From contig CALXLV010000019.1 in assembly GCA_944389295.1 (NCBI GenBank), forward strand, positions 1 through 64,000: a stretch of DNA of 64,000 nucleotides, read 5' to 3'. This document shows positions 1 to 53,657 of this stretch, in pieces. The DNA comes from an uncultured Spirochaetaceae bacterium (GTDB taxonomy: Bacteria > Spirochaetota > Spirochaetia > Sphaerochaetales > Sphaerochaetaceae). A program made the translations under genes and the position numbers. The notes beneath the pieces were generated by a model. The model saw nothing but the letters and a program-made list of their open reading frames with translations. It was not told the DNA's origin and did not search any database. Each line of letters begins with the position of its first letter. The first letter of the stretch is position 1.

Positions 1-65
1 TCGTTCTGGACACAGATAAGTTCCGCAACCATCTTACGGAATTGTCTTGGATACCTCTTTGGCAT
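1..65 (-). CDS. Transposase OrfA N-terminal fragment (partial)
   Basis: About 21 codons are visible from the ATG at 65 down to the window edge. The basic N-terminus (PKRYPRQFRK) resembles the start of IS3-type OrfA helix-turn-helix proteins, and AGGAGG lies 5 nt upstream. The last codons visible overlap the left inverted repeat, so the reading frame may end almost immediately outside the window. Function cannot be judged from this stub. Confidence 0.4.
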   Translation of the reverse strand, partial: MPKRYPRQFRKMVAELICVQN

Positions 66-108
66 CTTTACCTCCTGAAAATGTTATACCCTTGATTTTC
101 TGTGTCCA
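1..108 (-). mobile_element. IS-derived fragment with short inverted ends
   Basis: Positions 7-15 (TGGACACAG) and 100-108 (CTGTGTCCA) are perfect 9-bp inverted repeats, and the match extends imperfectly a few bases inward. Between them, on the minus strand, lies a perfect AGGAGG ribosome site (71-76) and an ATG at 65. The encoded peptide begins MPKRYPRQFRKMVAEL, like the N-terminal helix of IS3-family OrfA transposases. It is either the tip of a full element lying off the left edge or a roughly 100-bp deletion derivative (MITE-like). No clear target duplication is visible. The IS3 assignment is inferred from the peptide and the TGGACA-type end. Confidence 0.5.
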
Positions 109-142
109 CTAATTCGAGAAGGTTCAAAGCAACGATTAAATG

Positions 143-173
143 TTGACAAAATAGAACAGGGGGGGGGTAGGCT
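143..173 (+). promoter_or_regulatory. Cassette promoter 1 with G9 spacer tract
   Basis: The -35 is TTGACA (143-148) and the -10 is TAGGCT (168-173), with a 19-bp spacer. The spacer ends in nine uninterrupted G (159-167). The same layout precedes the lipoprotein genes at 6308, 23415 and 52810. A homopolymer inside the spacer is a classical substrate for slipped-strand length change, and 19 bp is longer than the usual 17, so each gained or lost G should alter promoter strength. Confidence 0.75.
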
Positions 174-205
174 GTATTCATCAAGATTCTACTGGAGGAT
201 TTGAA

Positions 206-1063
206 ATGAAGAAAATTCTTATCGCTCTTCTCGCAGTATCGATGCTTTTCGTGTTTACGGCCTGCGATGATGATTCATCGGAGGAAAGATTCAATCTTGC
301 TTCTGCAGAAAACGTCAATGCAGAGATGGTTGAGTTCCGTGATGCGTTTGTGAAAGTACATAATAAGATCGCGAATGATAATGGCGGAAGTTCTGATTAC
401 GTCGGTTCTGATAAAGTTACAGAAACAGTTTCTTCAATCGGAGATATGTACATTGATCTTGGAGAAGTCGGCAATGTGGAAAGCGTAGGGCTTCTTGGAA
501 AGACGTATAAGTCCGGAGATGAGATCATGCCTGTTTCCATTGGAATGAATGTTTTCTACAAGGATGCCGCATGGAAGGTTGAAGATGGGCACCTCCTTGT
601 GAACAAAGCTGCTTTCCTTTTCTCACTTCTTACTGATAACCCTCTCAAGGTGAATGGTTCTACATATGATGATTACTCTGTATTTGATGGAGAACCAGTT
701 TCCCTTACTGTTAGTGAAGTGAATTATGGAGATGCGCCTGTGACAGCAGAAAATGGTGTATATGAAGTGAACTGCACAGACTCTACTACACTTCTCAGAT
801 ATTCTTATACCAATGCGTCTGAGACTGATCTTCTCTATGTCGTGACATCGGAGAACGGAGAGATCACACAGAACTCAATTCTCACATATTCAGCAGCCGA
901 CTTCGGTTCTTATCTGCTTCCTTATGGAAAGGATATAACAGAAAATGTGGATAAGACGCTTGGGAAGGAATATCTTGTGCTTTCAAACGATGGCAGCAGT
1001 GTTGCAGTTAAGGGTGCGTTCGATATTACTGTCCATGTGACAGCAACAGCAGAAGAAGTTTGA
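206..1063 (+). CDS. Cassette lipoprotein 1
   Basis: This 285-residue precursor has a lipoprotein signal peptide (MKKILIALLAVSMLFVFTAC; lipobox FTAC, lipidated Cys at residue 20) followed by an acidic Asp/Ser linker. It therefore should be exported and acylated. The mature part (about 265 residues) is beta-rich by composition and matches no family I recognise. The signal peptide is nearly identical to those of the proteins at 6308, 23415 and 52810, while the mature parts are unrelated. GGAGG lies 8 nt before the ATG. A terminator-like hairpin and a small HTH gene follow. Function is unknown; a surface or periplasmic role is inferred from the signal only. Confidence 0.8.
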   Translation: MKKILIALLAVSMLFVFTACDDDSSEERFNLASAENVNAEMVEFRDAFVKVHNKIANDNGGSSDYVGSDKVTETVSSIGDMYIDLGEVGNVESVGLLGKTYKSGDEIMPVSIGMNVFYKDAAWKVEDGHLLVNKAAFLFSLLTDNPLKVNGSTYDDYSVFDGEPVSLTVSEVNYGDAPVTAENGVYEVNCTDSTTLLRYSYTNASETDLLYVVTSENGEITQNSILTYSAADFGSYLLPYGKDITENVDKTLGKEYLVLSNDGSSVAVKGAFDITVHVTATAEEV

Positions 1064-1254: not shown

Positions 1255-1449
1255 TTGGAACTTTATGCCTCAAAAAGCAGACTGCGGATTTCAAATGAAA
1301 AGCGCAAAGAATGCCTGACTCTTTTCCAAAGCGGGTATGGCTACAAGAAAACATCAAGGCTTACTGGTCTTAATAGGTACACTGTCCGCGAATATCTCCG
1401 GCGTTACAAAGCAGGGGATTTGAAGTGGGCTGAACGCGGCGGGAAATGA
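1255..1449 (+). CDS. Small cassette HTH protein 1
   Basis: This 64-residue basic protein starts at TTG with AAAGGA upstream; the frame is closed just above, so no earlier start is possible. Its core (KECLTLFQSGYGYKKT followed by GLNRYTVREYLRRY) is a helix-turn-helix of the type found at the N-terminus of IS3/IS150-like transposases, ending in a conserved GD-x-x-x-A-E tail. Homologues follow the lipoproteins at 6308, 23415 and 52810. DNA binding is inferred from the fold. It could be a regulator of the cassette promoters or a domesticated transposase remnant. The stop codon lies inside the terminator stem. Confidence 0.65.
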   Translation: MELYASKSRLRISNEKRKECLTLFQSGYGYKKTSRLTGLNRYTVREYLRRYKAGDLKWAERGGK

Positions 1450-6243: not shown

Positions 6244-6274
6244 TTGACAAAAGTGAACGGGGTGGGGGTAGGCT
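6244..6274 (+). promoter_or_regulatory. Cassette promoter 2 with G4TG5 spacer
   Basis: TTGACA (6244-6249), a 19-bp spacer ending GGGGTGGGGG, then TAGGCT (6269-6274). It is identical in plan to the promoter at 143, but a T interrupts the G tract, which should lock its length. Confidence 0.75.
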
Positions 6275-6307: not shown

Positions 6308-6817
6308 ATGAAGAAGATTCTTATTGCCCTTCTGACGATGATGGTCGTATTCGGATTCGTGGCCTGTGATGATTCTGATAATGGGCCGAAAGTTGTTGCT
6401 GATGCGACAGAGTATGTGGAGGTCCTTACAACAGGAACTCTTGGCAGTATGAATGTTTCTGATCTTATAGAGACGGGTGCAACTATAGCTGCAGATGGAA
6501 AAGTAACTGCTGTACTCAAGTCCGCAACAGGTTTCTCAGATTTCAATGATACAGAGGTAGATGAGCAGAGCGGTTTCTACCTTCCGATCAAGTTCAAGGG
6601 CGAAGTTGCAGAGGGCACAGCATTTACTGTCGTAGGCAGCGACAAGGGTGAAATGAAAGTTGATTCAGACCTGACTCATGTATTCAGGGTCGGAGGTATA
6701 GATCTTGAAGAGGCAGCTCTTCAGGCAACGACCTATGACATTGACATTCAGCTTAAAGATGAAATCGTAAGAGTCCACCTTGATCTTTCCGGCTGCACGA
6801 TTGCAAAGACTGAGTAA
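6308..6817 (+). CDS. Cassette lipoprotein 2
   Basis: This 169-residue precursor has signal peptide MKKILIALLTMMVVFGFVAC, lipobox FVAC with lipidated Cys20, and an Asp-rich start to the mature chain. The remaining 150 residues show no family I recognise and no similarity to the other cassette proteins beyond the signal. GGAGGATTTGAA precedes the ATG exactly as in cassette 1. Location in the envelope is a confident inference; function is unknown. Confidence 0.8.
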   Translation: MKKILIALLTMMVVFGFVACDDSDNGPKVVADATEYVEVLTTGTLGSMNVSDLIETGATIAADGKVTAVLKSATGFSDFNDTEVDEQSGFYLPIKFKGEVAEGTAFTVVGSDKGEMKVDSDLTHVFRVGGIDLEEAALQATTYDIDIQLKDEIVRVHLDLSGCTIAKTE

Positions 6818-6870: not shown

Positions 6871-6895
6871 AGATTTGTTTATGGTGAGGGGGAAA

Positions 6896-7111
6896 ATGCA
6901 ATCTGAGTGTAAGCATCCGAGACAACGTATCCCGTCATCTGTGCGGAAAGAATGTCTGTCTATGTTCAGAGAGGGGAACGGCTATAAGAAAACAGCCTCA
7001 GCTCTGGGGCTCAACCGCTATACTGTCCGGGAATATCTCCGTCGGTACAGGGCCGGAGATGTTAAGTTGGCTGAACGCGGAGGTAAGGATAATTCCGGTT
7101 CAGAGGGCTGA
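6896..7111 (+). CDS. Small cassette HTH protein 2
   Basis: This protein has 71 residues from the ATG at 6896, which has GAGGGGG 4 nt upstream; in-frame TTG and ATG codons at 6875 and 6881 lack such a site. The core (RKECLSMFREGNGYKKT, then GLNRYTVREYLRRY) is nearly the same as in the protein at 1255, including the tail A-G-D-V-K-L-A-E-R-G-G. A helix-turn-helix DNA-binding role is inferred. No terminator is evident before the converging purD homologue. Confidence 0.65.
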   Translation: MQSECKHPRQRIPSSVRKECLSMFREGNGYKKTASALGLNRYTVREYLRRYRAGDVKLAERGGKDNSGSEG

Positions 7112-23347: not shown

Positions 23348-23378
23348 TTGACAGAAATTAACGGGGTGGGGGTAGGAT
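23348..23378 (+). promoter_or_regulatory. Cassette promoter 3 with G4TG5 spacer
   Basis: TTGACA (23348-23353), a 19-bp spacer ending GGGGTGGGGG, then TAGGAT (23373-23378). Confidence 0.75.
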
Positions 23379-23414: not shown

Positions 23415-23990
23415 ATGAAGAAGATTCTTATGGTTCTTCTTGCTGTGGCTGTAGTATTCAGCTTCGCAGCTTATGAAGATAATGCATCCGATCCATGGAC
23501 AATCGGTGTAAGGCTTGCCAAGATTGAAGATGCTTCCAAGCCTAATTTTGCTGCAAACATTGAGGCGATTGACAAGGCAGATGCCTGGACATTCAAGAAC
23601 AATGTTCTGACCATCGATATTACTGGACTTAAACTTAATGATGAGACTTCAATCGGTGACCTTTCCGGAACTAGTCTTGAGAGCACAGGCGCATGGGTAT
23701 GCTTCCTCTTTGACACAGATGCGGAACTCAAGAATGTGAAGTTCAACAATGCTCCGCTTGGTGCAGACAATCTTGAGCCTTCTGTTACTGCGGCTGTTGA
23801 TGGATCAAAGAGAAAGGATTCTGAATTCACACAGTGGATCAACCTCTCTGATTCCAATACCTATGAGGAAGGAAGAGACGTCACGATCTATAACGGAATT
23901 GATACCGTAACAGTGAAGATCGTTGTCGTTGACAACACAACTCCTGCTGCACCGGAGACTCCGGAAGAAGGCGGAGCTGAGCAGGCCTGA
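23415..23990 (+). CDS. Cassette protein 3, lipobox cysteine lost
   Basis: This 191-residue protein begins MKKILMVLLAVAVVFSFAAY, clearly the cassette signal peptide. The lipidated Cys20 is replaced by Tyr (TAT; a TGT-to-TAT change would explain it). It may be secreted, or stay membrane-anchored, rather than lipidated. The mature part is acidic, unlike the other cassette proteins, and ends in a Pro/Glu tail (APETPEEGG). The family is unknown. The accompanying HTH gene is also disturbed, so this cassette may be decaying. Confidence 0.7.
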   Translation: MKKILMVLLAVAVVFSFAAYEDNASDPWTIGVRLAKIEDASKPNFAANIEAIDKADAWTFKNNVLTIDITGLKLNDETSIGDLSGTSLESTGAWVCFLFDTDAELKNVKFNNAPLGADNLEPSVTAAVDGSKRKDSEFTQWINLSDSNTYEEGRDVTIYNGIDTVTVKIVVVDNTTPAAPETPEEGGAEQA

Positions 23991-24099: not shown

Positions 24100-24261
24100 G
24101 TGAAGAGACTGGAATGCCTCTCGCTCTTTGAGAAAGGGTACGGTTACAAGAGGACGGCAAAAGAGACTGGGCTGAACGTCTACACGGTGCGTGAATACAG
24201 GAGGAGATACAACTCCGGAGACACGGCTTGGGCATACAGGTTCAGTGACAGACAGGAATGA
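24100..24261 (+). pseudogene. Small cassette HTH gene 3, apparently frameshifted
   Basis: The conserved core (CLSLFEKGYGYKRT; GLNVYTVREYRRRY; SGDTAWAY) reads from about 24100 to the stop at 24261. The well-placed AAAGGAGG at 24046-24053 serves a GTG at 24057 in a different frame, which stops early. Loss or gain of a base near 24081-24090 would join the two into a protein of the normal size. Either an internal GTG at 24100 is used (53 residues) or the gene is broken. Confidence 0.55.
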
Positions 24262-52751: not shown

Positions 52752-52781
52752 TTGACAGAAATCAACGGGGGGGGGTATGCT
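52752..52781 (+). promoter_or_regulatory. Cassette promoter 4 with G9 spacer tract
   Basis: TTGACA (52752-52757), an 18-bp spacer ending in nine G (52767-52775), then TATGCT (52776-52781). The spacer is 1 bp shorter than in the other three copies. Confidence 0.75.
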
Positions 52782-52809: not shown

Positions 52810-53391
52810 ATGAAGAAGGTTTTGATCATGCTGATGGCTGCTCTCATGCTTTTCGCATTTGCGGCCTGTGACGATGATTCCCCGGCTCCCGGAAAGGAAA
52901 TTGCCAGCTATTCCGGAGAAGAACTTGTAACGAATCTTGACCATGAGAAAGGCTCTCTTGCATTTGCTGATGACAAGGTCACAGTTACGAAGGAAGGTGC
53001 CTACTATGAAGGCAAGCTCGCAGAGGGAAAGACCTATGTCGTTTCCTATGATCTTACGATTTCCGGCAATGGCAGCGTAGCATTCAACCACAATCTTACC
53101 GGCGATAGCCATTTCTGCCAGGCTTATACCGTGTTCACGGCAGGTGAGGACGGTGTGACTGCAGAGGTAAGGCCTGAGACAAGCATGGCCGGAGTCACGG
53201 AGATGGGAGCCATCAAGGATGGAAAGGTCACTGTGACTGCAGCCTATACTGCTGATTCCGTGACTGTTTCCTTCAATGGACAGAGTGCGGCAGTGAATAC
53301 TGAAAAGGATGCCACGGGTATCTTCTGGTGCATCTCCGCTGTGGATGGAGCGGTTGTGACAATCGATAATTTCTCAGTTGTTGAGAAGTAA
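52810..53391 (+). CDS. Cassette lipoprotein 4
   Basis: This 193-residue precursor has signal peptide MKKVLIMLMAALMLFAFAAC, lipobox FAAC with lipidated Cys20, and an acidic CDDDS start. The mature part looks like a jelly-roll or carbohydrate-binding beta sandwich (repeated AYY, TYVVSYDLTISG, VTIDNFSVVEK strands), though I cannot assign a family. GGAGGATTGAA precedes the ATG. Confidence 0.8.
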   Translation: MKKVLIMLMAALMLFAFAACDDDSPAPGKEIASYSGEELVTNLDHEKGSLAFADDKVTVTKEGAYYEGKLAEGKTYVVSYDLTISGNGSVAFNHNLTGDSHFCQAYTVFTAGEDGVTAEVRPETSMAGVTEMGAIKDGKVTVTAAYTADSVTVSFNGQSAAVNTEKDATGIFWCISAVDGAVVTIDNFSVVEK

Positions 53392-53409
53392 TCACAGCGT
53401 GAATGCAGA

Positions 53410-53438
53410 CAGGGACGGCTCCGGCTGTCCCTGTTTTT
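53410..53438 (+). terminator. Strong terminator between cassette lipoprotein 4 and HTH gene
   Basis: A 10-bp stem (53410-53419 with 53424-53433, one G-T pair) and TCCG loop are followed by five T. The HTH start codon comes 7 nt after, so expression of the HTH needs read-through or its own signal. Confidence 0.9.
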
Positions 53439-53444
53439 CAGCAA

Positions 53445-53657
53445 ATGGCAAAAACTAAGGATAACAGCAGAAACCGCAATTACATAATCTCCCTGAAAGC
53501 AAAAGGGGAGATGCTTTCCTGCTTTGAGAAAGGTTTCGGATATAAGCGCACTGCCACTGAAACAGGGCTTACGCGCTATCAGGTGAGGTACTATCACCGC
53601 CGCTTTGCATCCGGCGACACTGCATGGGCTTACAAGCCGTCAAGAGACGAGAGATAA
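53445..53657 (+). CDS. Small cassette HTH protein 4
   Basis: The protein has 70 residues from the ATG at 53445; an upstream in-frame ATG at 53403 would translate through the terminator stem. Core: MLSCFEKGFGYKRTATETGL, then TRYQVRYYHRRFASGD and a tail AWAYKPSR. It is the most divergent of the four but keeps the same helix-turn-helix and GD-x-x-W-A pattern. There is no obvious Shine-Dalgarno. Confidence 0.6.
   Translation: MAKTKDNSRNRNYIISLKAKGEMLSCFEKGFGYKRTATETGLTRYQVRYYHRRFASGDTAWAYKPSRDER

Follow-up and report, generated by a model that had tools for sequence, protein, structure and literature searches.

Length-variable G tracts in promoter spacers of lipoprotein genes in uncultured gut spirochaetes: a probable slippage switch

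The window is the whole stretch of DNA that was analysed, 64,000 nucleotides long (G000:C19:1-64000). It belongs to a draft genome of 1.98 Mb in 46 contigs. Positions 143-173 read TTGACA-AAATAGAACA-GGGGGGGGG-TAGGCT, which confirms the 19-bp spacer with nine Gs described in the original prediction. A repeat search places copies of this promoter at 143, 6244, 23348 and 52752 of the window. Each is followed by a lipoprotein-like gene with a similar protein start (MKKxLI..L). The features of the four units, and the end of an insertion sequence (IS) beside the first one, are collected in Table 1. In the copy 3 protein (23415-23990) a Tyr stands at the position of the lipobox Cys of the other copies. 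The protein may therefore be secreted instead of lipidated, or it may be decaying.

Table 1. Coordinates of the promoter copies, their genes and the neighbouring IS end in the window
Feature	Position	Strand	Remarks
IS3-family left end: OrfA start and terminal repeat	1..125	-	start codon 63-65, reads leftwards
-35 box TTGACA, copy 1	143..148	+	read from sequence; conserved in 154 sites / 29 genomes
Spacer minus G run, AAATAGAACA, 10 nt	149..158	+	in the genus mostly 10 nt, else 8-9
G9 tract (GGGGGGGGG), presumed slippage site	159..167	+	tract length in the genus 8-12
-10 box TAGGCT, copy 1	168..173	+	read from sequence
Ribosome binding site GGAGG	194..198	+	read from sequence
Lipoprotein gene, copy 1	206..1063	+	285 aa, MKKILIALLAVSMLFVFTAC, no Pfam family
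Small ORF, homeodomain-like helix-turn-helix (HTH), unit 1	1255..1449	+	TTG start inferred
Promoter, copy 2	6244..6274	+	interrupted tract GGGGTGGGGG, spacer 19; repeat search
Lipoprotein gene, copy 2	6308..6817	+	169 aa
HTH ORF, copy 2	6875..7111	+	
Promoter, copy 3	23348..23378	+	interrupted tract GGGGTGGGGG, spacer 19; repeat search
Exported protein gene, copy 3	23415..23990	+	191 aa, Tyr in place of the lipobox Cys
HTH ORF, copy 3	24100..24261	+	
Promoter, copy 4	52752..52781	+	G9 at 52767-52775, -10 TATGCT, spacer 18; repeat search
Lipoprotein gene, copy 4	52810..53391	+	193 aa
HTH ORF, copy 4	53403..53657	+	most divergent

Runs of at least 8 Gs in the window, taken alone, are not significant: the octamer matches 4 times where 1.29 matches are expected, and 10 of 100 shuffles also get to 4. 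The composite TTGACA-N15..21-TAGGCT has 2 matches in the window against 0.02 expected, and none of 100 shuffles produced it. The whole genome holds merely 20 runs of at least 8 Gs, and 11 of these lie inside the promoters. We count 15 such promoters in this genome across several searches; the tract is pure in 10 of them and interrupted in 5. At least 154 are found in the genus (Candidatus Ornithospirochaeta and kin, uncultured gut spirochaetes), where 29-31 of 48 genomes are carriers. The genus search demanded TAGNNT as the -10 box, and its two N positions vary among sites. In 91 genomes drawn from 21 other genera of this family, no promoter of the design was found. Reversed-pattern controls gave zero matches, save one in one non-carrier genome. 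On the shuffles and these controls together we reject a chance origin of the promoter pattern. Named public records with the design belong to uncultured Spirochaetaceae or Spirochaetales and to Candidatus Ornithospirochaeta, a name coined from chicken gut metagenomes (PMC8035907). In IMG/VR 26 viral contigs match the promoter pattern, the majority of them probably by chance. One locus of the genome, on contig C36, has two G9 tracts 30 nt apart (49741 and 49771) with two TTGACA boxes upstream of one lipoprotein gene. This is possibly a doubled promoter.

An ATG ORF with a lipobox lies within 120 nt downstream of 143 of the 157 unique sites (about 91%). The promoters therefore appear to drive predicted lipoproteins, which may be exposed at the surface. 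The lipoprotein bodies differ and are mostly without a Pfam family; a Big_3 Ig-like domain was found in 2 of 10 tested from other genomes. The small ORF behind them is a homeodomain-like helix-turn-helix, with HTH_23 near its cut-off. When it was searched for in the genome there were 13 matches, and 13/13 lie downstream of such a promoter on the same strand. It is present at 51 of the 68 testable sites in all (about 75%), a median of 85 nt past the lipoprotein stop. Its paralogs are under purifying selection (mean pN 0.27, mean pS 0.81; pN < pS in 45/45 pairs). That its product is a regulator that binds the promoter would be a guess.

The number of Gs is variable. Pure tracts across the genus are G8 in 23 cases, G9 in 84, G10 in 24, G11 in 5 and G12 in 4, so the mode is 9. 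There are no tracts below 8 Gs, though the genus search required just 4-5. Spacers run from 17 to 22 nt with a mode of 19, and 17 nt is rare. Where promoters within one genome share an identical non-G part of the spacer, the G number differs in most of these groups. For example, genome G012 has G8, G9 and G11 with one -10 box, and genomes G010 and G042 have G9 and G12. Three orthologs from three species have G10, G9 and G8, and their 400-nt upstream flanks are 97-98% identical. It is also worth considering homologous promoter pairs. Twelve were taken at the start and three were dropped because the upstream match was only a shared IS end. The G number differs in 8 of the nine pairs used, which are partly non-independent, and their flanks are 83-98% identical. 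Those flanks (about 5.1 kb) contain 22 gap openings, which gives about 0.35 changes expected in nine 9-nt tracts. Tract length thus differs between closely related loci more than the flanks do, as judged from these nine pairs in assemblies. Every sequence used comes from an assembly, most if not all of these being metagenomic, and misassembly could affect copies close to the end of a contig. The G-number pattern is, as far as assemblies can tell, a signature of contingency loci.

The original prediction compared copies 1 and 4 and took their 1-nt spacer difference for the sort of variant that slippage would yield. The difference is real (19 against 18 nt), but that inference fails because the G number is equal: both tracts are exactly G9, and we discard the two copies as slippage products of one another. 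The additional nucleotide in copy 1 is A158, which is outside the G run. Set against the paralogs with ten Gs (AAC-G10-TAGG), copy 4 lacks one G, and in copy 1 the first tract position has changed from G to A. The broader claim of a spacer-length switch fares much better, since paralogs often differ in G number alone and nearly all of the homologous pairs do differ. The position of the tract between TTGAC and TAnnnT boxes, the predicted lipoproteins downstream and the precedent of tp0126 (PMC7864442) lend it further support.

We argue with good confidence that the G9 tract is the length-variable part of the spacer of a sigma-70-type promoter, and that slippage at such tracts switches each lipoprotein gene. 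The architecture, its recurrence across the genus, the association with lipoprotein genes and the excess of length change in the tract are all observed. The promoter consensus is TTGAC, then 8 to 10 nt with AC or ACN at their end, then G8 to G12, then TAGNNT. Gs would be gained or lost by slipped-strand mispairing during replication. Each change would alter the distance between the -35 and -10 boxes (17-22 nt) and also their helical phase. Every lipoprotein gene would then change its transcription independently, switching would take place within a clone and the outcome would be a mixed population. Since the G number varies even among near-identical loci, random switching probably turns the lipoprotein genes up and down. 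Interrupted tracts such as GGGGTGGGGG are probably locked. A third of the promoters in this genome (5/15) are interrupted and presumably stable, so not every promoter is a switch. Of the 14 interrupted tracts 12 keep the 19-nt spacer, and of the 140 pure tracts 78 do so (Fisher p = 0.044). Because these presumably unslippable tracts favour 19 nt, there is a weak hint that 19 nt may be an active spacing.

The putative switch itself is of a known kind. In the spirochaete Treponema pallidum the poly-G in the promoter spacer of tp0126 (an OmpW homolog) is an experimentally known switch for which 17 nt is optimal (PMC7864442). The tprL gene of the same species has 7-11 Gs, mostly 9, and tprE/G/J likewise have poly-G (PMC7864442 and its references 15 and 16). 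Our promoters are like that of tp0126 in that they belong to a spirochaete and have a homopolymer in the spacer that separates the -35 and -10 boxes; in tp0126, which encodes a surface protein, its length affects output. Tract lengths are similar too, as the comparison with tprL shows. Our promoters differ in that T. pallidum has one promoter of this exact design and here there are up to about 15 per genome, almost every one of them upstream of a lipoprotein gene and many of them paired with an HTH ORF. The modal spacer is also 19 here rather than the optimal 17 there, which counts against the switch reading. The porA gene of Neisseria meningitidis too has poly-G between its -35 and -10 boxes, and spacing alters transcription there (PMC7864442), but it is one porin gene in an unrelated phylum with no multigene set. 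The vlhA genes of Mycoplasma gallisepticum are a multigene lipoprotein family with a variable repeat of its own for each promoter (PMC6258824). There, however, the repeat is a GAA trinucleotide, and it lies upstream of the promoter and outside the spacer. Three things look new here: a lipoprotein set that spans the genus, the HTH ORF paired with its genes, and the association of an IS3-family element with G tracts. The element is the most surprising of these. If the switch reading is true, promoter-spacer slippage, known from single pathogen genes, operates on the scale of a genus-wide lipoprotein set of gut spirochaetes.

The IS end in the window stops 33 nt before the G9 tract and reads away from the promoter. 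The element encodes an OrfA of 97 aa and a partial OrfB of at least 183 aa; HTH_21 and rve score above their cut-offs and HTH_Tnp_1 below its own. An OrfA with an HTH and an OrfB with an integrase core is the arrangement of the IS3 family. The weak HTH_Tnp_1-like domain in OrfA, HTH_21 with rve in OrfB and the probable TGGACA-type inverted repeats at the ends are likewise those of the family. The left end reads ...AGTGGACA, and a matching probable right end, GGGCACTTCCGAAAAAAGTGGACA, is found on five contig edges, never with the left end in one copy. No complete copy with both ends and flanks was found among the assemblies searched. The genome has nine left ends; the element is repeated, so each of them falls at a contig edge or close to one. 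All nine are followed, 30-33 nt outside the element, by the start of a G9 or G10 tract in the same orientation. Only five of these tracts belong to lipoprotein promoters. The other four are within coding sequence or elsewhere, and the 30 nt or so that separate IS end and tract are unrelated. Five other species have nine copies between them, of which 7 lie at an equal distance from tracts of 9 to 12 Gs; of the two exceptions one shows an imperfect stretch rich in Gs at the corresponding position and the other is degraded. Across all six genomes 16 of the 18 left ends thus have a tract of G9 to G12 at 30-33 nt and in one orientation, and this measured distance sets the element apart from the IS3 family in general. 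The simplest reading would be that the G tract guides the insertion. A limited literature search found no paper on the choice of G tracts as targets by the IS3 family. The fixed distance suggests that contingency tracts can be landing sites. On another contig, C14, there is an IS200/IS605-like transposase gene (judged by eye) at about 360-850 besides an IS3-type end.

One can imagine that the G tract is kept mainly as a landing site for this element and that the promoter association is secondary. The fixed distance at every one of the genome's IS ends would be expected in that case. However, G-tract promoters occur in 29 species, and close relatives of the element were found in only 6 of the 48 genus genomes. 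The boxes and the lipoprotein genes stay together where the element is missing. The distribution therefore largely excludes this explanation, and we consider it highly improbable. One can also imagine that the tracts are a sequencing or assembly artefact, for example two-colour poly-G, or that they are there by chance. These are draft metagenome assemblies and several copies are at contig ends, but an artefact does not explain fixed boxes on both sides and lipoprotein genes behind them in assemblies from differing sources. Nor does it explain why the design had no match in the sister genera and why the reversed pattern gave almost none. We reject the two-colour artefact because of the fixed flanking boxes across many assemblies, and we find artefact or chance scarcely credible at all.

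A more serious alternative is that the G tract serves as a fixed DNA-binding element, recognised by an activator, by a repressor or by the HTH protein of the cassette itself, and that the variation in length is tolerated noise. Three observations speak for it: the hold of the interrupted tracts on the 19-nt spacer, the lack of tracts below 8 Gs, and the genetic linkage of a conserved HTH ORF to the promoters. However, a binding site has no need of a pure homopolymer, which is mutationally unstable, and most copies are pure with 8-12 Gs. The tract also sits exactly in the spacer between the -35 and -10 boxes, so its length itself must matter. We therefore think a binding element unlikely. Slippage in the spacer is the reading that we prefer, and it can be carried further. 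The element would pick long G runs and insert 30-33 nt off in one orientation, mostly upstream of contingency promoters, and would leave the promoter intact. The orphan HTH protein would be a dedicated reader of the promoter, and the whole module would be a self-contained, spreading system of variable lipoproteins. We put this forward as a possible but rather doubtful extension.

One further G tract of this genome speaks for the slippage reading. At C31:14231-14240 the signal peptide of a different lipoprotein gene contains a G10, and in this assembly the downstream frame is out of register. With G9 or G12 at this place the lipoprotein frame would be open for about 150 aa. This locus is possibly a translational counterpart of the promoter switch.
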